DNA of 64,000 nt from Mesoflavibacter profundi (lineage in GTDB: Bacteria > Bacteroidota > Bacteroidia > Flavobacteriales > Flavobacteriaceae): positions 633,501-697,500 of the forward strand of contig NZ_CP061703.1 of NCBI RefSeq assembly GCF_014764305.1. The letters are read 5' to 3'. The notes under the pieces were generated by a model. The model was not told where the DNA came from. It worked only from the letters and a program-made list of their open reading frames with translations, and did not search any database. Positions within the stretch are counted from its first letter, which is position 1; each line of letters begins with the position of its first letter. This document shows, one piece after another, positions 3,676 through 63,091 of this stretch. The position numbers and the translations under genes were made by a program.

Positions 3676-4502
3676 TATAGTTTTGCGTTTTTATAGGTTC
3701 CTAAAATTTTAAAATGTGTTGCCATTATTGTCATAATTGATGCTGCTTTTTCAAAATCTTCATAAGCTTCAAAAGTGACATCGACAAAAAATGAATATTT
3801 CCAAGGTGTTTCAATTTTTGGTAAGGATTGTATTTTGGTAAGGTTTAATTTACAATCGCTCATCACATTTAAAATTGTTGCCAAACTTCCTCTTTTATGG
3901 TCTAATTCAAATTTTAATGACGCTTTATTAATTTCGTTTTTATGATTGTTAATTGGTTGCGTTTTTACAATAGCAAATCGGGTTTGATTGTGTTTTATGG
4001 TTTGAATACTTTCGGCTAAAATGTCTAAGTTAAAAATCTTTGCTGCCAAAGTACTTGCTATTGCTGCAACACCTTTTATTTGCTGTGCTTCAATTTTTCT
4101 TGCCACATCTGCAGTATCTTTATCTTCTACTAGTTTAATATGCGGATAATCTTTAAAAAACGATTTGCATTGCAATAGCGCCATAGGATGACTGTGTACT
4201 TCTTTTATATCTGCAATTGTTTGGTTTGGTAACGCCATTAATTGATGTTGCACATCCAAATAATGCTCGCCAACAATGTGTAAATCGTTATTATCTATTA
4301 ACGCATAATTTGGCAAAATAGAACCAGCAATAGAGTTTTCTAATGCCATAATTGCTGTCTCTGCGGTATTATTAAATAAGGACGCAACTGTTTCGTCAAA
4401 CGTTAAACATTCTTTCACTTTATGTGTGTTATCATAATAATCTAACGACACTATATGATGAAAAGAGCCTTGTATACCTTGTATTGCTATTGTTTTTGTC
4501 AT
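3675..4502 (-). CDS. pheA: Prephenate dehydratase with ACT domain
   Basis: It converts prephenate to phenylpyruvate, the committed step to phenylalanine. The 275-residue protein has the dehydratase domain up to about residue 185, with the conserved TRF at 174-176, and an ACT domain from about 196 to the end. The ACT phenylalanine-binding motifs are recognisable but changed: GSLA (205-208) for GALA, and SLPK (226-229) for ESRP. It is the first gene of the operon. Its ATG directly follows the ten-T tail of a terminator hairpin, so it depends on the leader described just upstream. There is no chorismate mutase domain; that is on the DAHPS protein. Confidence 0.93.
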   Translation of the reverse strand: MTKTIAIQGIQGSFHHIVSLDYYDNTHKVKECLTFDETVASLFNNTAETAIMALENSIAGSILPNYALIDNNDLHIVGEHYLDVQHQLMALPNQTIADIKEVHSHPMALLQCKSFFKDYPHIKLVEDKDTADVARKIEAQQIKGVAAIASTLAAKIFNLDILAESIQTIKHNQTRFAIVKTQPINNHKNEINKASLKFELDHKRGSLATILNVMSDCKLNLTKIQSLPKIETPWKYSFFVDVTFEAYEDFEKAASIMTIMATHFKILGTYKNAKL

Positions 4503-13213: not shown

Positions 13214-13240
13214 AAACAATATTAATTATGAACTATGGGA

Positions 13241-28542: not shown

Positions 28543-28634
28543 CAACTAATAATTGATTTATAGTATTGATTTTCAGTGTTTTAAATTCGGTTTTTTAATC
28601 TGAACATCGTAGCGTATCAAATAGCTATTATGCA

Positions 28635-33248: not shown

Positions 33249-34521
33249 AATACGGAAATTTATTTTTAATCTGTTCCAAACATAAATTACCAATACTTCC
33301 AATGTGTGTATGTTCTTTTGACGTATCTGGATTGTAGGTTCCGTTTTGAACTTCACCTCCAATTTTTTGATAGGCTTCTCTAAAACTCATTCCGTTTTCA
33401 ACTAATGTATTGATGTTGTCAACCGTAAATAAATATTGATATTTCTTGTCGTTTAAGTCAATAGATTTTACTTCTATTTGTTTAATAGAATAGTTAAAAA
33501 TCTCCAAAATATCTTGCATATTCATAATGGCTGAAATCATATTTTCTTTCAGCAATTGATAATCTCTGTGATAACCACTTGGCAGATTGTTGGTAATCAA
33601 AACCATTTCATGATGTAAGGATTGAATTTTATTGCTCTTTCCTCTAATCAACTCGAAAACATCAGGGTTTTTTTTGTGAGGCATGATGCTACTTCCTGTA
33701 GTTAATTCATCCGGAAAACTTATGAAGCCAAAATTCTGACTCATATACAGGCAAATATCCATAGCAAATCGCGCCAATGTATTAGCTAAACTACCTAATG
33801 CTAATGCAATAGTACGTTCACTTTTTCCACGACTCATTTGTGCAGCAACAACGTTATATTTTAAAGTTGAAAACTCTAAAAGTTCTGTAGTTAATTGTCT
33901 GTCAATTGCGAATGAACTTCCATAGCCAGCTGCAGAACCAAGCGGATTTTGATCAATGGTTTTTAACGCTGCATCTAACAAATACATATCGTCAATTAAG
34001 ACTTCTGCGTAAGCTGAAAACCATAACCCAAAAGATGATGGCATCGCAACTTGCAAATGCGTATAACCTGGTAATAGTGTTTTTTTATGTGTTTCAGCTA
34101 ATTCTAAAAGCGTTTCAAAAAAGTCTTTTGTTTTAGATTTTATATTGCTTAATTCGGCTTTGTAAAATAGTTGCAATGCTACCAAAACCTGATCGTTTCT
34201 AGATCGTGCTGTATGGATTTTTTTACCAACGTCACCATAGGTTTTGGTGAGTTCAAATTCAATTTTTGAATGTACGTCTTCAAACTGATTGTCTATAGTA
34301 AACGTACCGTTTTCAATTTGTGATGCTAAATCCTGAAGTCCTTTTTCTAATTGCTTCAGTTCTTCGACAGTCAAAATACCAATCGATTGCAACATTTTAG
34401 CATGCGCTAATGAGGCTTGCACGTCGTATTTTGCAATGTGTAAATCGATTTCTCGATCGTTACCAACCGTAAACTGTTCTATTTTTTTGTCTATGCTTAT
34501 GCCTTTATCCCAGAGTTTCAT
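33247..34521 (-). CDS. argH: Argininosuccinate lyase
   Basis: It cleaves argininosuccinate to arginine and fumarate. The superfamily signature GSSIMPHKKNPD is at about 277-288, with TARSRNDQV near 102-110 and TAHKKTLLPGYTHLQ-like EThKKTLLPGYTHLQ near 145. At 424 residues it is about 35 shorter than E. coli ArgH, missing part of the C-terminus; the active-site loop is intact. It is the last gene of the arginine operon, after a 91-bp gap containing short palindromes. Confidence 0.94.
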   Translation of the reverse strand: MKLWDKGISIDKKIEQFTVGNDREIDLHIAKYDVQASLAHAKMLQSIGILTVEELKQLEKGLQDLASQIENGTFTIDNQFEDVHSKIEFELTKTYGDVGKKIHTARSRNDQVLVALQLFYKAELSNIKSKTKDFFETLLELAETHKKTLLPGYTHLQVAMPSSFGLWFSAYAEVLIDDMYLLDAALKTIDQNPLGSAAGYGSSFAIDRQLTTELLEFSTLKYNVVAAQMSRGKSERTIALALGSLANTLARFAMDICLYMSQNFGFISFPDELTTGSSIMPHKKNPDVFELIRGKSNKIQSLHHEMVLITNNLPSGYHRDYQLLKENMISAIMNMQDILEIFNYSIKQIEVKSIDLNDKKYQYLFTVDNINTLVENGMSFREAYQKIGGEVQNGTYNPDTSKEHTHIGSIGNLCLEQIKNKFPY

Positions 34522-53913: not shown

Positions 53914-54426
53914 TTATTCTACAATAAATTTTCCTTTCATCATACCAAAGTGACCAGGAAAACTACAAATAAAATCATATTCACCAGCTTCTGGTGCAGT
54001 AAATTCTACAACAGCTGTTTCTCCTCCACCAATCATTTTGGTATGCGCAACAACATCTGTTGTACCTTCTGGAATATAATCATTGTCTTTAGACATTGCT
54101 GCTTTACCAGCAAACGCAGCTACATCTGTACCTGGTTTTAGTATAACAACATTGTGTCCCATTACCATTTTATCTGCTTTACCAATGTGTCTTAATGTAA
54201 TTTTTACTTTTTGACCGGCTTTAGCTTTAAGTTCAGACTTATTAAATTTCATTAAGTCATTTCCTGTAATAGTTAAATCTGCAACATCACTTTCAGAAGT
54301 CGATTCTGTTTTTGTTTCTGAAGTTCTCTCATAAGAAAACCCTTTTTTCTCCTTTTTTTCTTCTCCACAACTAACTACTAAAAACAGTCCTAAAATTGTG
54401 GCAAATGCTATTCTACCTAGTTTCAT
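53914..54426 (-). CDS. Azurin (cupredoxin lipoprotein)
   Basis: A periplasmic type 1 copper electron carrier. The signal MKLGRIAFATILGLFLVVSC lipidates Cys20, followed by a charged linker to about residue 48. The cupredoxin domain has the copper ligands: His in MVMGHNVV (about 94), then Cys, His and Met in FICSFPGHFGMMKG near 153-164. HIGKADKMVMGHN matches the azurin HPGxxxKxxMGHN segment. It follows ilvA on the same strand after 69 bp but probably has its own promoter. It likely donates electrons to an oxidase or reductase. Confidence 0.92.
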   Translation of the reverse strand: MKLGRIAFATILGLFLVVSCGEEKKEKKGFSYERTSETKTESTSESDVADLTITGNDLMKFNKSELKAKAGQKVKITLRHIGKADKMVMGHNVVILKPGTDVAAFAGKAAMSKDNDYIPEGTTDVVAHTKMIGGGETAVVEFTAPEAGEYDFICSFPGHFGMMKGKFIVE

Positions 54427-54495: not shown

Positions 54496-55758
54496 TTATA
54501 CTAAAAACTGAAATAAATCTGGTTTATCATTTAAGTAATCACCATAAAAATTATGAAGTTTCATTTTGGTAATAAGAGGTTGTAAATCGTCTGCCGATTT
54601 TAGCTCTACTCCTACTACTGCTGCGCCATTTTCGCGGTTTGTTTTTTTGGTATATTCAAAGTGGGTAATATCATCATTTTCTCCTAAAATATCTACAACA
54701 AACTCGCGTAATGCACCAGCACGTTGCGGGAACGTAACAATAAAATAATGTTTTAGATTAGCATGCAATAACGCACGTTCTTTAATTTCGGCAGTTCTAG
54801 TAATGTCATTATTACTTCCGCTTACTACACAAATCACATTTTTACCTTTTATTTCTTCTTTAAAATCATCTAAAGCAGAAATACTCAAAGCGCCAGCAGG
54901 TTCAACTACTATTGCGTCTTTATTGTATAGATCTAAGATCGTTTGGCACACTTTACCTTCAGGAACGGTTACCATTTGATCTAAATTTGACTTACAAATT
55001 TCAAAATTTAAATCGCCAACGCGTTGTACTGCTGCGCCATCTACAAACTTTTCGATATGGTTAAGCTGTGTGTTTTTTTGATTTTCAATTGACGTTTTCA
55101 TTGATGGCGCGCCTAAAGGCTCGACACCAATAATTTTGGTTTGCGGTGACAATTCTTTAAACACTGATGATAACCCAGCTGATAATCCGCCACCACCAAC
55201 AGGCACAAACACATAATGAATTGGATGTAGTGCTTGGTCTATAATTTCTAACCCAACAGTAGCTTGACCTTCTATCACCTTTTCGTCATTAAATGGATGA
55301 ATAAATGCTTTTGAAAGTCGCTCGCATTCTTTCATCGCTAGATGATAAGAATCGTCAAAAGTATCGCCTGCAAGAACAATTTCGATATACTCTTCTCCAA
55401 ACATTTTTACCTGCTCCACCTTTTGTCTTGGCGTTGGAGCAGGCATATAAATGGTTCCTTTAATTTTTAATAATTTACAAGATAACGCTACACCTTGCGC
55501 ATGGTTACCAGCACTAGCGCAAACAATACCATTTTCTACTTCTGAAGCCGATAACGAAGACATTTTATTATAAGCGCCTCTAATTTTATAAGAGCGCACT
55601 TGCTGTAAATCTTCACGTTTAAACATGATATTACAGTCAAACTCTTTAGAGTATCTAAAGCTTGATGTTAATGGCGTTACCGCTGCAACATCTCGTAATT
55701 TTTCGGCTGCAGCTTCTACTGCTTTTAATTTAGGAAAATAGATGGTTTGCGTTTGCAT
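54496..55758 (-). CDS. ilvA: Threonine ammonia-lyase
   Basis: It deaminates threonine to 2-oxobutanoate, the first isoleucine-specific step. The PLP lysine is Lys58 in RSYKIRGAYNKM, CASAGNHAQGVA follows near 79-90, and VPVGGGGLSAGL near 186-197 binds the phosphate. A single ACT-like regulatory domain occupies about 330-420 (HYFIVTFPQRAGALREFV onward), typical of the 420-residue form; E. coli IlvA has two such units. It is the last gene of the ilvDBNCA operon, 10 bp after ilvC, so isoleucine likely inhibits it. Confidence 0.94.
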   Translation of the reverse strand: MQTQTIYFPKLKAVEAAAEKLRDVAAVTPLTSSFRYSKEFDCNIMFKREDLQQVRSYKIRGAYNKMSSLSASEVENGIVCASAGNHAQGVALSCKLLKIKGTIYMPAPTPRQKVEQVKMFGEEYIEIVLAGDTFDDSYHLAMKECERLSKAFIHPFNDEKVIEGQATVGLEIIDQALHPIHYVFVPVGGGGLSAGLSSVFKELSPQTKIIGVEPLGAPSMKTSIENQKNTQLNHIEKFVDGAAVQRVGDLNFEICKSNLDQMVTVPEGKVCQTILDLYNKDAIVVEPAGALSISALDDFKEEIKGKNVICVVSGSNNDITRTAEIKERALLHANLKHYFIVTFPQRAGALREFVVDILGENDDITHFEYTKKTNRENGAAVVGVELKSADDLQPLITKMKLHNFYGDYLNDKPDLFQFLV

Positions 55759-55768
55759 TAGTTTGTTT

Positions 55769-57268
55769 TTAAGCTAAAACACTTTCTTCTTTAGCTTCGG
55801 TTTTTATTACTTTCATTGCGGTCATTGCGGCACGAAGACGCTTACCGACGGTTTCGATTGGATGATTTCTAATAGCGTTATTCACTTTGATTAATTCGAT
55901 ATTATCGACACCTGTTTTAGTTGAAAATGACTTTCCAATTACTGATGCATCAACAGTTTTCATAAAATCTGCTAGCAAAGGTTTGCATGCATGATCAAAT
56001 AAATAGCAACCATATTCTGCGGTATCAGAAATGACTCGATTCATTTCAAATAACTTTTTACGCGCAATGGTATTTGCTATTAATGGCAACTCGTGTAACG
56101 ATTCGTAGTAAGCAGAATCTTCGATTATTCCTGCGCTTACCATTGTTTCAAAAGCAAGTTCTACTCCAGATTTTACAAATGCGACTAATAACACACCATG
56201 ATCAAAATACTCTTGTTCTGTAATATGATCTGAAGTTAATTCGGTTTTTTCAAAAGCAGTTTCGCCAGTTGCTGCTCGCCATTTTAAAAGGTTAACATCG
56301 TCATTTGCCCAATCTTCCATCATAGTTTTTGAGAAATGACCAGAAATGATATCGTCCATATGTTTTTCGAATAATGGGCGCATGATGGTTTTTAATTCTT
56401 CAGATAATTCAAATGCTTTAATTTTTGAAGGGTTTGACAATCTATCCATCATGTTTGTAATGCCACCATGCTTTAACGCTTCAGTAATAGTTTCCCAGCC
56501 AAACTGAATTAATTTTGCAGCATAACCAGCTTCAATTCCTTCTGCAACCATTTTGTCAAAAGACAAGATTGCTCCTGTTTGCAACAAGCCACATAAAATG
56601 GTTTGCTCGCCCATTAAATCAGATTTTACCTCAGCCACAAAAGACGATTCTAAAACGCCTGCACGATCGCCACCTGTTGCAACTGCGTAAGCCTTTGCTT
56701 GCGCCCAACCTTTGTTTTCTGGATCGTTTTCTGGATGCACAGCAATTAATGTTGGCACACCAAAACCACGTTTATATTCTTCACGCACTTCGGTTCCTGG
56801 ACATTTTGGTGCGACCATAATTACCGTAATATCTTTACGGATTTGCGTACCTTCTTCAACAATATTAAAACCATGCGAGTAGCTTAACGTCGCGCCCTTT
56901 TTCATTAAAGGCATCACTTGATTAACTACATCTGTATGTTGCTTGTCTGGTGTTAAGTTTAATACTAAATCTGCTGTTGGAATTAAATCTTCATAAGTCC
57001 CAACATTAAATCCGTTATCGGTTGCATTTTTGTACGACGCTCGTTTTTCATCTATAGCTTGCTGACGTAAAGCATAAGAAATATCTAAACCAGAATCTCT
57101 CATATTTAATCCTTGGTTTAATCCTTGTGCGCCACAACCTACAATGACTATTTTTTTATCTTTTAACGCAGCTACGCCGTCTTCAAATTCTGAAGCTTCC
57201 ATAAATCTGCATTTCCCTAATTGTTCTAATTGTTTTCTTAATGGTAATGTGTTAAAATAATTTGCCAT
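55769..57268 (-). CDS. ilvC: Ketol-acid reductoisomerase, class II
   Basis: It isomerises and reduces acetolactate and acetohydroxybutyrate with NADPH. The 499 residues include the NADP motif [19 protein letters not shown] near 43-61, and two knotted helical domains with Mg ligands ([12 protein letters not shown] near 215 and the repeat later). That is the long, E. coli/plant-like class II form rather than the 330-residue class I. It sits 11 bp from ilvN. Confidence 0.95.
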
Positions 57269-57279
57269 TTTAGTTTGTT

Positions 57280-57807
57280 TTAGTGTTGAAAAGCTTCCAA
57301 CATTTTAGTTATTTCCATTGGTGTTTTGGTGACTGCAATTCGTCCAGAACGGGTGAATTGCAAAATTCCAAAAGCACTTAATTCTCTGTGTAATAATTCT
57401 ATTTCGCTACGTCGTCCTGATTTTTCAAGCACAAAAAACGCTTTATTTACAGTGACAATTCTAGCGTTACTTTCTTTAATAATATTTTGAATTTGTCGCT
57501 CTTCAAATAATAAATCTGATTTGATTTTGAACAGACAAGACTCTTGATAAATGGTTTCTTCTTCGGTGTGATAATAGGCTTTAATCACTTCAACCTGTTT
57601 TTCAATTTGACCAATGATTTTTTTCATTTGGTCTTCTGTTAACTTAACCACAATGGTCCATTTAGACACATTTTCAATTTCTGAAATTGAAGAATTTATA
57701 CTTTCAATATTAATGTGTCTACGTTGAAATATTGCCGAAATACGGTTTAATAATCCGATATTATTTTCGGTATAAATAGAAACGGTATATAATTTATTTT
57801 CACTCAT
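57280..57807 (-). CDS. ilvN: Acetolactate synthase small (regulatory) subunit
   Basis: The 175-residue ACT protein begins [33 protein letters not shown], the usual ACT fold that binds valine, with a C-terminal ACT-like second domain ([25 protein letters not shown]). It activates IlvB and confers feedback inhibition. The stop of ilvB is 2 bp upstream. Confidence 0.94.
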
Positions 57808-57809
57808 AA

Positions 57810-59543
57810 TTACTCTAATCTTACGTCTGAAACACTTGCACCTGTTGGTATCATCGGGAATACGTTATCCTCTTTTTCAACTATAACTTCTAAGAAATAT
57901 GCACCTTCAGTTTCCATCATTTCTTTTACTGCATCGGCTAAATCTTCTCTTTTAGACACGCTTTTGGCATTAATATGATAACCTTTAGCTATCGCAACAA
58001 AATCTGGATTTTCAATTTCTGTAGACGCATAACGCTTATCAAAAAACAGTTGTTGCCACTGTCTAACCATACCTAAAAAATTGTTGTTTAACACCACAAT
58101 TTTTACAGGTACTTTGGTTTGAAAAATAGTTCCTAATTCTTGTATTGTCATTTGATAACCACCATCACCAGCAATCATCACCACATCACGTTCTGGCGCG
58201 CCCATTTTTGCACCAATTGCAGCTGGTAACGCAAATCCCATTGTACCTAATCCGCCAGATGTAATGTTACTTTTAGAAACGTTAAAATCGGCATAACGAC
58301 ACGCAATCATTTGGTGCTGACCAACATCACTAACTATTGCTGCTTCACCTTTGGTTTGTGCATTAATCTCTATAAGCACTTCGCCCATAGTCAAGCCATC
58401 TTTTGTAGGATGTAAATCGTTTTTTATGACTTTATCAAATTCAACTTGGTATAAATCTTTAAATTTTTGATGCCATTCTGTATGTGAATTTTCTTTTAAA
58501 AGCGGAAGAATTGCCGCCAAAGTCTCTTTTGAATTCCCTAAAACAGCAACATCTGTTTTTACATTTTTATCAACCTCAGCTGGATCAATTTCAAAATGAA
58601 TCACTTTTGCTTGTTTAGCGTAAGTTGTTAAATTTCCTGTGACGCGATCATCAAAACGCATTCCGATTGCTATTAAAACATCACATTCGTTAGTCAACAC
58701 ATTTGGCGCATAATTACCGTGCATACCAACCATTCCGACATTTAATGGATGCGTTGAAGGAATTGCCGAAGCACCTAAAATAGTCCAAGCTGATGGTAAA
58801 CCAGCTTTTTCGATAACCGCTTTAAATTCAGCTTCAGCTTCACCTAAAATCACACCTTGTCCCCAAACGACAAGAGGTTTTTTTGCATTATTAATTAAAT
58901 CTGCAGCAGCTTGTAAAGTGTTTGGATTAGTTTCAGGAATTGGCTTATAACTTCTAATTCCTGTACATTTTTCATATTTAAAATCGAATTCTTCAAATTG
59001 TGCATCTTTGGTAATATCTATTAAAACTGGACCAGGACGACCACTTTTTGCGATGTAAAATGCTTTTGCAATGACTTCAGGAATTTCTGAAGCTTTTGTG
59101 ACTTGATGATTCCATTTAGTAACAGGTGTTGAAATACCAACGATATCGGTTTCTTGAAACGCATCGCTACCCAATAAATGCGATCCAACTTGACCTGTAA
59201 TACACACCATTGGTGTACTATCTATTTGCGCATCTGCAATACCTGTAATCAAGTTAGTTGCGCCAGGACCAGAAGTTGCCATAGCGACACCAACTTTACC
59301 CGAAATGCGTGCGTAACCTTGAGCTGCATGCGTTGCACCTTGTTCATGACGTGTTAAGACATGATGAATTTCGTTTTGAAATTTATACAACTCGTCATAA
59401 ACTGGCATAATTGCGCCGCCAGGATAACCATAAAGTACATTTACACCTTCAGCCATTAAGCTTCGAACAACCGCTTCGCTACCCGAAATGCGGATAGTTT
59501 TTGAAGTAGATTGCTCGTTGTTTTTTATCGTTTTTGTTTCCAT
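57810..59543 (-). CDS. ilvB: Acetolactate synthase large (catalytic) subunit
   Basis: This ThDP- and FAD-dependent enzyme makes acetolactate from two pyruvates or acetohydroxybutyrate from pyruvate and oxobutyrate. The 577 residues hold GYPGGAIMPVYDELY near 40-54, the catalytic Glu in TRHEQGATHAAQGYAR near 68 and the ThDP motif starting AGDGGYQM near 455. It lies 30 bp after ilvD. Confidence 0.96.
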   Translation of the reverse strand: METKTIKNNEQSTSKTIRISGSEAVVRSLMAEGVNVLYGYPGGAIMPVYDELYKFQNEIHHVLTRHEQGATHAAQGYARISGKVGVAMATSGPGATNLITGIADAQIDSTPMVCITGQVGSHLLGSDAFQETDIVGISTPVTKWNHQVTKASEIPEVIAKAFYIAKSGRPGPVLIDITKDAQFEEFDFKYEKCTGIRSYKPIPETNPNTLQAAADLINNAKKPLVVWGQGVILGEAEAEFKAVIEKAGLPSAWTILGASAIPSTHPLNVGMVGMHGNYAPNVLTNECDVLIAIGMRFDDRVTGNLTTYAKQAKVIHFEIDPAEVDKNVKTDVAVLGNSKETLAAILPLLKENSHTEWHQKFKDLYQVEFDKVIKNDLHPTKDGLTMGEVLIEINAQTKGEAAIVSDVGQHQMIACRYADFNVSKSNITSGGLGTMGFALPAAIGAKMGAPERDVVMIAGDGGYQMTIQELGTIFQTKVPVKIVVLNNNFLGMVRQWQQLFFDKRYASTEIENPDFVAIAKGYHINAKSVSKREDLADAVKEMMETEGAYFLEVIVEKEDNVFPMIPTGASVSDVRLE

Positions 59544-59573: not shown

Positions 59574-61253
59574 CTAAAACTCGTCGGTAACACAACCTTT
59601 GGATGCAGACGACACTGTTTTAGCATATTTATAAAGGACACCACGATTAAATTTTAATTCTGGTGCTTTCCATGATTGTTTTCTTTGTGATAATTCTTCT
59701 TCTGAAACTTCAAGTTGAATGGTATTGGTTTCAGCATCAATTGTAATAAAATCGCCATCTTTAACTAATGCAATTGTACCACCATCTTGAGCTTCTGGTG
59801 TAATGTGACCAACCACAAAACCGTGTGTACCACCAGAAAAACGTCCATCGGTAATTAACGCTACGTCTTTACCTAAACCTGCACCCATAATAGCTGCAGT
59901 TGGCTTAAGCATTTCTGGCATTCCTGGTCCGCCTTTTGGTCCTTCATATCTAATGACAACTACATCACCTTTTTCTACTTTACCATCTCTAATACCATCG
60001 TTTGCTGCGTATTCGCCTTCAAATACTTTTGCTTTTCCGCGAAAGCGTAATCCTTCTTTTCCTGTGATTTTTGCAACACTTCCATCTTCAGCTAAATTGC
60101 CATAAAGCATGCGCAAGTGACCTGAGATTTTTATAGGTTCTTCGATGGATTTTATCACATCTTGACCTTCGGTTAAATCATTAACATCTAATAAATTTTC
60201 GGCTAGTGTTTTTCCTGTTACGGTTAAACAGTCACCATGAATTAAGCCTTTTTTCAATAGATATTTTAAAACTGCAGGAATACCACCAACTGCGTGCACG
60301 TCTTCCATTAGGTATTTTCCGCTAGGTTTTAAATCGGCTAAAAAAGGTGTGTTATCACTAATATTTTGAAAATCTTTTAAAGTGAAATCTATATTTGCCG
60401 CACGAGCAATTGCTAAAAAGTGAAGCACTGCATTGGTCGATCCACCTAAAATAGTCACCAAACGAATAGCATTTTCTAAAGATTTGCGAGAAATGATATC
60501 ACTTGGTTTAATATCTTTTTCGATTAGCAATCGCATCGCTTCGCCAGCTTTTATGGCTTCTTGTTTTTTCTCTTCACCTGTAGCTGGATTTGATGAATTG
60601 AAAGGTAAGGTCATCCCTAAAGCTTCAATTGCTGACGCCATCGTATTTGCAGTATACATTCCGCCACAAGCACCAGCACCAGGACAAGCTTTTTCAACTA
60701 TATTTTGATATTCGCTTTCATTCATTGTACCAGCGACTTTGCTTCCCCAAGCTTCGAAAGCTGAAACGACGTCTAGTTTTTTTCCGTTATGACAACCAGA
60801 ATCAATGGTTCCACCATACACCAAAATACTTGGTCTATCTAAACGTATCATTGCCATTAATGCGCCTGGCATGTTTTTGTCACAACCAACAACGGTTATT
60901 AATCCGTCGTAGCTCATTGCTTGCACTACAGTTTCCATAGAGTCGGCAATAATATCTCGAGAAGGCAAAGAATAACGCATACCTGGTGTACCCATAGAAA
61001 TTCCGTCACTTACACCAATGGTATTAAAAATTAAGCCTACTACGTCTTCATTTTTTGTGCCTTGCTTAGCGAGTTTTGCTAAGTCATTTAAATGCATATT
61101 ACATGGATTACCTTCGTAACCTGTACTTGCAATACCTATAATGGGTTTATAAAAATCTTCTTTGGTTAATCCTATTGCATGCAACATTGCTTGTGCTGCT
61201 GGTTGCGTTGGATCTTGTGTTACTGTTTTACTGTATTTATTTAGTTGACTCAT
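59574..61253 (-). CDS. ilvD: Dihydroxy-acid dehydratase
   Basis: It dehydrates dihydroxy acids to the keto acid precursors of valine and isoleucine. The 559 residues contain [12 protein letters not shown] near 121-132 and [16 protein letters not shown] near 190-205 (Fe-S ligand cysteines), with [15 protein letters not shown] before them. It is the first structural gene, 203 bp after the attenuator, so the mRNA has a long untranslated stretch in which a second small ORF occurs. Confidence 0.96.
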
Positions 61254-61455
61254 TTAGTCCGTTTCTTATTTATGATTTTCTAAATTACTAATTTGACTAT
61301 GCTTGACTTTTTAGTTATTGAATTATAGACTAAAGCCATAACTCAATTTAATTATTTAATATATTGATTTTCAGATGTTTAAAATAAAGCAAGTATGATG
61401 CCCAATTGTTAATATTTGACCTTTATATTTTACTTTAAACTGAAATAAACCCAAC

Positions 61456-61488
61456 AAAAAAGCCTTCCTGAAAAAGGAAGGCTTTTTT
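61456..61488 (-). terminator. Attenuator terminator of the ilv operon
   Basis: A 14-bp perfect stem (AAAAAAGCCTTCCT and AGGAAGGCTTTTTT, 5-nt loop) ends in six T on the minus strand. It lies 29 bp after the leader peptide stop and 200 bp before ilvD. Its 5' arm holds TTCCTT (61479-61474), which can pair with AAGGAA (61519-61514) overlapping the leader stop codon, a possible antiterminator. It may also end gltBD transcripts. Confidence 0.88.
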
Positions 61489-61517
61489 ATTTATTCTAAA
61501 ATAATATATACCATTCC

Positions 61518-61583
61518 TTACCACCGTGATTTAATAATCACAATGCTAATATTTGAAATGATATTTACGATTTGTTTGTTCAT
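61518..61583 (-). CDS. Branched-chain leader peptide (attenuation control of ilvDBNCA)
   Basis: This 21-residue ORF starts at ATG 61583 and stops at TAA 61518. Seven Ile and two Val occur, clustered as QIVNIISNISIVIIK (residues 4-18). A perfect 6-bp hairpin, GTGATT/AATCAC (61526-61541), lies inside the coding region over the Val-Ile-Ile-Lys-Ser codons, like the 1:2 pause hairpin of enteric ilv leaders. The next segment AAGGAA can pair with the terminator's 5' arm. With scarce Ile-tRNA the ribosome would stall and allow read-through. No Leu codon occurs, so control is probably by Ile/Val. The layout is visible; the mechanism is inferred. Confidence 0.88.
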   Translation of the reverse strand: MNKQIVNIISNISIVIIKSRW

Positions 61584-61592
61584 CTTGATAAT

Positions 61593-61624
61593 CAAATATT
61601 GAAATTATTTAATTAAAATCCAAA
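61593..61624 (-). promoter_or_regulatory. Probable promoter of the ilv leader
   Basis: On the minus strand TTTG (61624-61621) directly after the gltD stop, a 20-bp spacer and AATATTTG (61600-61593). The predicted start would be only a few bases before the leader ATG, implying a nearly leaderless leader peptide. Confidence 0.42.
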
Positions 61625-63091
61625 TTACACTCTAGGTAAATCACCTTCTTCTTTTAATGGTAAATTAGATTTTCCCATTAAAAAAGCATCGACATGATGT
61701 GCTGCTTGACGACCTTCGGAAATTGCCCAAACAATTAACGACTGACCGCGACGCATATCTCCTGCTGTAAAAATACCTTTTACATTAGTTGCATAATCTT
61801 TTTCGGTTGCTTTGATGTTGGTTCTAAAATCCATTTCTAAACCAAATTGTTCTGCTAAAGTTTTTTCGGCACCAGTAAAACCAAGTGCTAACAATGCCAA
61901 ATCGCAGTCCCAAGTTTTTTCGGTATCTGGTAACTCTTTTAATTCTGGTCTTTGGCCTTCTTTGAAAATCCATTCGACTTCAACTGTTTTTAAACCGATT
62001 AAATTTCCGTTTTTATCACCTAAAAATTCTTTAGTAGAAATACTAAAAAAGCGCTCAACACCTTCTTTATGTGATGTTGTTGTTTTTAAGCGCATAGGCC
62101 AATATGGCCAAGGTTGATGTGCTGGACGAACTTTAGTTGGTTTACTTAAAATTTCAAAATTTGTTACCGATGTTGCACCATGACGATTACTAGTACCAAT
62201 ACAATCGCTACCTGTATCGCCGCCGCCAATGACAATTACTTTTTTATTTTTTGCTGAAATAATTTCATCTTCACCTATCAATCCATCAACATGTTGGTTA
62301 TTTTTCTTCAGAAATTCCATCGCTTGATGTACACCTTTTAGATGATTTCCTTTAATAGGAATATTTCGTCTAACTGTTGCGCCGCCACATAAAAGAATTG
62401 CATCAAAATCTGCTTTTAACGTTTCAACACTTAAATTTTGCCCAACATGAGCATTGGTTTTAAATGTTATGCCTTCGTCTTCAAGAATTTTAATACGTCT
62501 ATCTATAATTTTCTTTTCTAACTTAAAATCAGGAATACCATAACGCAACAAACCACCAACTTTTGCGTCACGCTCAAAAACCGTTACCAAATGTCCTACC
62601 CTATTTAATTGTTGAGCAGCTGCTAAACCTGACGGACCAGAACCTACAACAGCAACCTTTTTACCAGTACGATGCTTTGGCGGATGCGCTTCTACCCAAC
62701 CTTCTTTAAAGGCGATTTCAGCAATGTTTTTTTCAATATTTTCTATTGAAACAGGATCTTCATTAATCCCTAAAACACACGCTTCTTCACAAGGCGCTGG
62801 ACATAGACGACCAGTAAATTCTGGAAAATTATTTGTGGCATGTAAAATTTGTGCTGCTTCTTTCCATCGTCCTTTATAGACTTTATCGTTAAAATCAGGA
62901 ATTAAATTACCCAACGGACAACCGCTATGACAAAACGGAATACCGCAATCCATACATCTAGCGCCTTGATTTTTGAGTTTTTCCTCTTTTAAAGGCACTG
63001 TAAATTCTTTATAATTTTTTAGACGATTTTCTACTTTTAAATAACCTTCGTCTTCTCTTTTATATTCTAAAAATCCTGTTGTCTTTCCCAT
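61625..63091 (-). CDS. gltD: Glutamate synthase small subunit
   Basis: This FAD protein passes NADPH electrons to GltB for glutamine + 2-oxoglutarate to two glutamate. The 488 residues begin with Fe-S cysteines (CMDCGIPFCHSGCPLGNLIPDF near 47-68, then CPAPCEEAC near 97-105). They continue with the FAD motif VGSGPSGLAAAQQL near 149, the NADPH motif GGGDTGSDCIG near 291, and end with the GDMRRGQSLIVWAI segment near 449. It follows gltB by 4 bp and precedes the ilv leader by 41 bp. Confidence 0.96.
   Translation of the reverse strand: MGKTTGFLEYKREDEGYLKVENRLKNYKEFTVPLKEEKLKNQGARCMDCGIPFCHSGCPLGNLIPDFNDKVYKGRWKEAAQILHATNNFPEFTGRLCPAPCEEACVLGINEDPVSIENIEKNIAEIAFKEGWVEAHPPKHRTGKKVAVVGSGPSGLAAAQQLNRVGHLVTVFERDAKVGGLLRYGIPDFKLEKKIIDRRIKILEDEGITFKTNAHVGQNLSVETLKADFDAILLCGGATVRRNIPIKGNHLKGVHQAMEFLKKNNQHVDGLIGEDEIISAKNKKVIVIGGGDTGSDCIGTSNRHGATSVTNFEILSKPTKVRPAHQPWPYWPMRLKTTTSHKEGVERFFSISTKEFLGDKNGNLIGLKTVEVEWIFKEGQRPELKELPDTEKTWDCDLALLALGFTGAEKTLAEQFGLEMDFRTNIKATEKDYATNVKGIFTAGDMRRGQSLIVWAISEGRQAAHHVDAFLMGKSNLPLKEEGDLPRV

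Follow-up and report, generated by a model that had tools for sequence, protein, structure and literature searches.

The ilvDBNCA operon of Mesoflavibacter profundi is preceded by a leader that is very probably a classical ribosome-mediated transcription attenuator, one that would sense the supply of Ile- and Val-tRNA. The feature is encoded on the minus strand of the window, by which we mean the whole stretch of 64,000 nucleotides that was analysed. The first structural gene of the operon, ilvD (59574–61253, minus strand, NCBIfam TIGR00110), has its ATG at 61253 and is followed by ilvB, ilvN, ilvC and ilvA, which make up the remainder of the operon (54496–59543, minus strand, NCBIfam assignments). 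The upstream gene, gltD (61625–63091, minus strand, NCBIfam TIGR01317), lies outside the attenuator. The leader ORF MNKQIVNIISNISIVIIKSRW (61518–61583, minus strand) starts 41 nt past the end of gltD and runs from ATG to TAA over 21 codons, seven of which specify Ile, two Val and none Leu, so that nine of the 21 encode the amino acids produced by the operon. A longer form with a TTG start also appears in the ORF list and is unnecessary, as the ATG suffices. From the leader stop codon to the ATG of ilvD the distance is 264 nt. A first-pass annotation of this DNA had described a 21-codon ORF with nine Ile/Val codons, an observation that we confirmed at 61583–61518. Its remark that Leu codons are lacking is true of the copy in the window and does not extend to the class, since 39 of the 93 leaders assembled here are without Leu and 54 contain at least one.

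An intrinsic terminator is located between the leader ORF and ilvD (61491–61453) and consists of a 17-bp stem (61491–61475/61469–61453), the 11-bp core of which holds its 5 G-C pairs; 199 nt separate its end from the ilvD ATG at 61253. The first-pass annotation had reported a 14-bp terminator 200 bp before ilvD; the terminator and its position hold, and the proposed length falls between the core and the full stem. Three mutually exclusive helices can be drawn in this leader: 1:2, 2:3 (the antiterminator) and 3:4 (the terminator). Strand 1, with the core AUAUCAUUUC (61555–61564, minus strand), lies inside the ORF, extending from the end of Asn7 through Ile8 and Ile9 to the start of Ser10, and has strand 2 as its partner. 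Strand 2, AAGGAAUGGUAU (61508–61519, minus strand), takes in the final two bases of the stop codon plus the next 10 nt, and can pair with either strand 1 or strand 3. Folding assigned strand 3, the 5' arm of the terminator with the core AAAGCCUUCCU, to 61475–61491 and strand 4, the 3' arm with its U tract, to 61453–61469, both on the minus strand. Helix 1:2 is thus formed among the control codons, by AUAUCAUUUC (61564–61555, across Ile8/Ile9) with GGAAUGGUAU (61517–61508, directly past the stop codon), and helix 2:3 by AAGGAAUGGUA (61519–61509) with AGCCUUCCU in the 5' arm of the terminator, at −9.0 kcal/mol. The candidate antiterminator strand AAGGAATGGTA (61519–61509), which is exclusive with the terminator, starts within the stop codon, where the first-pass annotation had also seen a potential antiterminator. 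The perfect hairpin it had noted inside the ORF is present as well, at 61518–61549 (minus strand), with a 10-bp stem (61545–61536/61531–61522) and 3 bp over the stop codon; it is enclosed by helix 1:2 and may act as an RNA polymerase pause hairpin.

Such an arrangement is rarely produced by chance. The 134-nt leader had a minimum free energy of −44.6 kcal/mol; shuffles averaged −18.98 (sd 3.02; z −8.5), and none of 200 folded as well. When the 371-nt intergenic region was subjected to 4000 dinucleotide shuffles, an ORF as rich in Ile/Val was found in 11 of them and a terminator as strong (stem of at least 11, at least 5 G-C pairs) in one, while no shuffle had both. With a lenient definition of the terminator (stem of at least 8, at least 4 G-C pairs) the count rose to 9 of 4000, again with no shuffle possessing both elements.

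The proposed mechanism would operate as follows. Transcription would start just before the leader ORF, at a position predicted from a promoter-like motif, and a ribosome would trail RNA polymerase into the ORF. With Ile-tRNA and Val-tRNA plentiful, the ribosome would reach the stop codon and cover strand 2; strand 3 could then pair with strand 4, and transcription would terminate before ilvD. Under Ile or Val shortage, the ribosome would stall at any of the nine codons for these amino acids, covering strand 1 or having passed it and leaving strand 2 exposed; 2:3 would then form, the terminator would not, and the operon would be transcribed. We folded the transcript lacking strand 4 with an assumed ribosome footprint. 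A ribosome placed at each of the nine Ile/Val codons allowed 8–9 pairs of helix 2:3, and a ribosome on the leader stop codon allowed none. Without a ribosome, the minimum-energy fold of the unfinished transcript shows 2:3 rather than 1:2, and the full transcript folds as 1:2 plus the terminator. Because the ribosome-free unfinished transcript forms 2:3, folding does not clearly mark the untranslated state as a terminated one.

Similar Ile/Val leaders precede ilv genes in relatives. As a query, IlvD matched 37 of 60 relatives' genomes, from which 30 loci, that of the window among them, were retrieved; the 80 named loci are the best 80 of 578 confirmed, from a genome collection. The 80 named loci (1,757,200 nt) were scanned on both strands with a detector that called an ATG ORF of 12–32 codons, with Ile plus Val making up at least 34% and at least five codons, and an intrinsic terminator starting within 110 nt. 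It returned 47 matches in 34 loci. According to BLAST, the next gene was ilvD in 30 of these matches, ilvE in 16 (the ilvE reference used was confirmed by NCBIfam, in L060) and neither in one (L101, minus strand). The module thus stands at the head of ilv genes in 46 of 47 detector matches; this identification of the next gene covers the matches of the named loci.

A relaxed detector yielded 72 modules, and subtraction of three identical copies and of two that were not leader-like (the second match in L040, and L057) left 67. A further 26 came from the survey, after one match in L160 had been removed, resulting in 93 modules in all. On this basis at least 34 of the 80 named loci carry a module, as do at least 16 of the 30 IlvD-fetched loci, the window being one of the 16 and L008, which ends at a contig end, being outside the scan; both counts are lower bounds because identical modules were removed. 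The survey comprised 60 stretches picked by hand from the listed matches, and not at random. Modules occurred in 2 of 2 stretches from the same order, 9 of 18 from the same family, 3 of 20 from the same class and 7 of 20 from the same phylum. Many relatives have no detectable module, and in L003 nothing was visible upstream of ilvD despite a 98% identical IlvD.

As a check on whether the leader ORFs might be translated, differences between leaders were counted by codon position. Among pairs of class-1 leaders, the type found in the window (69 pairs, which are not independent), 418 differences fell at codon position 3 compared with 248 and 209 at the other two. In class-2 pairs the tendency was weaker, with 70 differences at position 3 against 47 and 56. 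As a separate observation on codon choice, of the 263 Val codons that the 93 leaders contain, 132 are GTC, versus 16 of 114 in ilvD, ilvB and gltD of the window; this excess could be explained by pairing constraints or by a preferred slow codon.

Evidence for the alternative helices was also obtained from covariation among the 93 modules. The 2:3 pairing had a mean energy of −9.52 kcal/mol when each module kept its own arms and −6.87 (sd 0.23) when arms were dealt among modules, a value that 0 of 2000 permutations reached, with relatedness uncorrected. The signal persisted in the 61 modules with distinct arms (−9.75 vs −6.96; 0 of 2000) and in class 1 alone (−8.78 vs −7.19; 0 of 2000). Owing to its nearly invariant arms, class 2 alone displayed no covariation in 2:3, with 692 of 2000 permutations matching the observed value. 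For 1:2, the modules' own pairing averaged −10.11 against −7.77 (0 of 2000 permutations, relatedness likewise uncorrected), and by group the z values were −6.9 in class 1 and −4.9 in class 2, with 44 of 2000 permutations reaching the observed value in the other 16 modules. Tested against a shuffled strand 1, 1:2 was only modestly above chance, the mean z being −1.4 with 31 of 93 modules below −2. In 93 of 93 modules, the stretch around the stop codon was a better partner for the terminator arm than the ORF's first 40 nt.

These data allow other explanations of the locus to be weighed. The hairpin follows gltD immediately, on the same strand, and its long stem, flanked by T runs, has the look of a strong terminator; it might be supposed that it constitutively ends gltBD transcription and that the ORF is a chance reading frame, the outcome that the first-pass annotation itself had named as refuting its proposal. 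We examined this by a survey of upstream genes. Among the 34 module-bearing named loci, the longest ORF (at least 100 codons) with its end no more than 700 nt upstream of the module was gltD in 3, leuB in 1 and another gene or none in 30, and it was on the opposite strand in 13. The module stays with ilv while the gene upstream of it changes, and a plain terminator needs neither an ORF nor covarying strands 1 and 2. We rejected the gltBD terminator because gltD is upstream in just 3 of 34 loci, and consider this explanation very unlikely.

We see an even slighter chance that the terminator is controlled by a metabolite-binding RNA or a T-box with the peptide being incidental. Such elements share the layout of a leader RNA and terminator before a biosynthetic operon, but what is conserved here is an Ile/Val reading frame together with complementary strands. 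Moreover, no Rfam family attained its gathering score in the region, and a search at E values up to 10 gave only 43 matches, all below the families' cut-offs; on these results the riboswitch reading was rejected. The remaining proposal is that the leader ORF acts by translation, through re-initiation or protection of the mRNA, and not by transcription termination. Leader ORFs can indeed work through short-distance re-initiation, according to PMC4833913, but the 264 nt between the leader stop and the ilvD ATG are far beyond the distances given there, and a terminator with a covarying antiterminator stands in between; a translational role is accordingly most improbable. Transcription attenuation by a translating ribosome thus remains our preferred reading, and the parallel with enteric ilv attenuation drawn in the first-pass annotation is supported by the four-strand architecture, the specificity for ilv operon heads and the covariation.

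Two sequence classes of module were recognized by simple patterns in the terminator arm, a scheme into which 16 survey modules did not fit. Class 1, the window type (e.g., MKKQVLNIISIIIVIVIISQG in L054), is marked by CCTTCC or a close variant of it in the terminator, and class 2 (e.g., MNQFFNIVVIIIVIISSPPS in L054) by CCTGTATC. Most class-2 modules have a TGA stop codon within strand 2, in TGATACAG or a near variant. Only the first class is carried by the window. In 22 of the 71 module-bearing loci (e.g., L041, L054, L060, L124 and L169) two Ile/Val modules are arranged in series, usually differing in sequence. The second module starts 7–33 nt past the first terminator in 16 of these 22 tandem loci and after a gap of 47–318 nt in 6. 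In 17 of the 22, each strand 2 prefers its own terminator arm over that of the other module in both directions, the mean pairing energy of the tandem loci being −9.98 for own and −6.39 for cross pairs; in the five exceptions (L052, L058, L063, L070 and L124) the two modules are near copies of each other.

A sequence reminiscent of a promoter precedes the leader ORF of the window. The −7-like element AATATTTG (61593–61600, minus strand) is one base off TAnnTTTG, and TTTG at 61624–61621 (minus strand) is a possible −33 element. Enteric bacteria, in which classical attenuation was elucidated, use Shine-Dalgarno sites. By the account given in PMC9723704, translation starts of flavobacteria depend on other signals; for Flavobacterium psychrophilum the motif G is placed at −5, and leaderless messages represent 5.5% of the mRNAs measured. 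Since we set the G at −5 as in F. psychrophilum, the predicted transcription start falls near 61588, which would leave a 5' UTR of about 5 nt.

A −7-like motif was present 3–14 nt before the leader ATG in 38 of the 50 first modules of L001–L110 compared with 3.4 in shuffles (maximum 9), a pattern that was chosen post hoc. The looser nAnn[TA]TTG, at the same distance, occurred in 43 of 71 first or only modules against 4.5 in shuffles (maximum 12), a count that is partly fitted because the pattern was picked after the sequences had been inspected. Before second modules it was found in 1 of 22, with 1.3 in shuffles. A stricter −7 pattern matched 24 of the 71 first modules, where shuffles gave 3.4, and a single one of the 22 second modules, where they gave 0.8. 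The distance from the motif G to the ATG was 8–10 nt in 26 of the 31 class-1 first modules with a motif and 4–5 nt in all 8 such class-2 modules; the latter are predicted to give leaderless or nearly leaderless messages.

We lean toward a joint reading of these results, with only slightly better than even confidence: Ile/Val leader attenuators would be widespread on the ilv operons of Bacteroidota as a separate RNA family with at least two sequence classes, and about a third of the module-bearing loci would have two in series, usually with different antiterminator codes so that neither opens the other. In this proposal the class-2 first or only leaders with a −7 motif would be leaderless mRNA sensors, because their ATG would coincide with the predicted transcription start or lie one base from it at most. 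The kind of switch at ilv is classical; less usual are the paired attenuators in series, orthogonal for the most part, in some relatives and the very short predicted 5' ends. If the reading is true, two attenuators responding to the same signal would multiply termination and would sharpen or widen the response, which poses the question of why one signal should be read twice. An attenuator supported by covariation, whose 5' UTR is predicted to span a few bases, would also provide a natural test of the coupling of ribosome and RNA polymerase without a Shine-Dalgarno site. The ilv leaders could join annotation as an RNA family, given that no Rfam family reaches its cut-off there.

The enteric ilvGMEDA and ilvBN operons are governed by leader-peptide attenuators. 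The leader described here resembles these in its Ile/Val-rich ORF, its 1:2, 2:3 and 3:4 helices and the terminator before the structural genes; unlike them, the window copy has no Leu codon and a predicted 5' UTR of about 5 nt, and we claim no sequence relationship. Leader ORFs rich in branched-chain amino acids before acetolactate synthase genes, with attenuation proposed, are described in PMC10272879 for the Corynebacterium ilvB-II motif and suggested there for the ilvB-OMG and Leptospira ilvB motifs, whereas the operon head here is ilvD or ilvE. The ilvB-OMG family was absent from the 43 sub-cut-off Rfam matches obtained at E up to 10. Within the same bacterial family, PMC9723704 reports "strong clues" that leader peptides attenuate operons for amino-acid biosynthesis in F. 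psychrophilum; its main text names no ilv leader, the string "ilv" appearing there 0 times. We found no description of an ilv leader in Bacteroidetes among the titles and abstract openings listed from the open-access literature, and Lopatovskaya et al. (2010), as cited in PMC4833913, may cover one. The present leader is less novel than the first-pass annotation had scored it, because flavobacterial leader-peptide attenuation had already been suggested in print (PMC9723704).

A system related in kind is the Rfam family Bacteroid-trp (RF01692), a Bacteroidetes peptide-leader attenuator that is built on Trp and not Ile/Val; the ilv leader scored 23.7 bits against its cut-off of 49. The Thr_leader and Phe_leader families, at 30.5 and 31.8 bits (minus strand), missed their cut-off of 55. 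With respect to the tandem loci of relatives, Salmonella mgtCBR likewise has two leader ORFs and two attenuators per transcript, which as described in PMC3641672 sense ATP and proline and are unlike intrinsic terminators; in the tandem loci both leaders are Ile/Val-rich and each is followed by an intrinsic terminator.

Leaders matched to the product of the pathway were also found before other amino-acid operons of the same genome. Outside the window, hisG (L111) is preceded by a His-rich leader, MTFIQLHHHHFHTCTQAS, with a terminator, and trpE (L114) by a Trp-rich leader, MNTILNHTWWWNFKNSNFVK (WWW), with a terminator; the trp leader is a member of Bacteroid-trp (RF01692; 62.4 bits, cut-off 49). 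Inside the window, a Phe/Tyr-rich leader, MNTILNTYYNWFYFFFNEKNETLYM (4635–4558, minus strand), identified by eye, lies with its terminator before pheA, the whole spanning about 4635–4511. This is probably the other attenuator in the same 64 kb that the first-pass annotation had implied. Of 29 loci, 25 have a Phe/Tyr/Trp-rich ORF and a terminator upstream of the gene for prephenate dehydratase. The detector for leaders of other amino acids missed the pheA leader because its thresholds excluded it. Over the window this detector recovered the ilv leader and gave two unconvincing matches that we set aside: an R-rich ORF at 34410–34472 (plus strand), and MILFVVFLVTLV at 53940–53978 (minus strand), which overlaps the end of the 53914–54426 gene in another frame. 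On inspection, no such leader and no terminator were found before leuA in the window (28691), and about 1 kb upstream of one of the two homoserine dehydrogenase genes (thrA) contained no terminator. The suggestion that attenuation is a general strategy in this lineage hence stands and is not universal, because the hisG, trpE and pheA leaders match their products while leuA and one thrA are without.

Several other elements were observed in passing. A second conserved element lies between the attenuator and ilvD (window 61405–61365, minus strand), consisting of TTGAA[CT]AT[CG] followed by TGA-N3-TCA-like blocks. Of 109 loci, 33 have the first of these within the 420 nt that precede ilvD, and some of them lack an attenuator. 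In the window this element is degenerate (TTGGGCATCATA ... CTGAAAATCA), and an exact composite pattern was matched nowhere in the genome. Blocks of a similar kind, differently ordered, occur before leuA (28564–28611, plus strand), and the element is perhaps a putative transcription-factor site common to ilv and leu. The window also contains two Flavo-1 RNAs (Rfam RF01705; 31879–31996, plus strand, and 9354–9250, minus strand), one of which is in the gap before leuB within the leu cluster, and two SAM riboswitches (RF00162) on the minus strand at 13215–13099 and 26899–26775. In Bizionia arctica (L041), a SAM-II riboswitch (4117–4176, minus strand) is located near an ORF divergent from the ilv leader; by eye, this ORF looks like metK.
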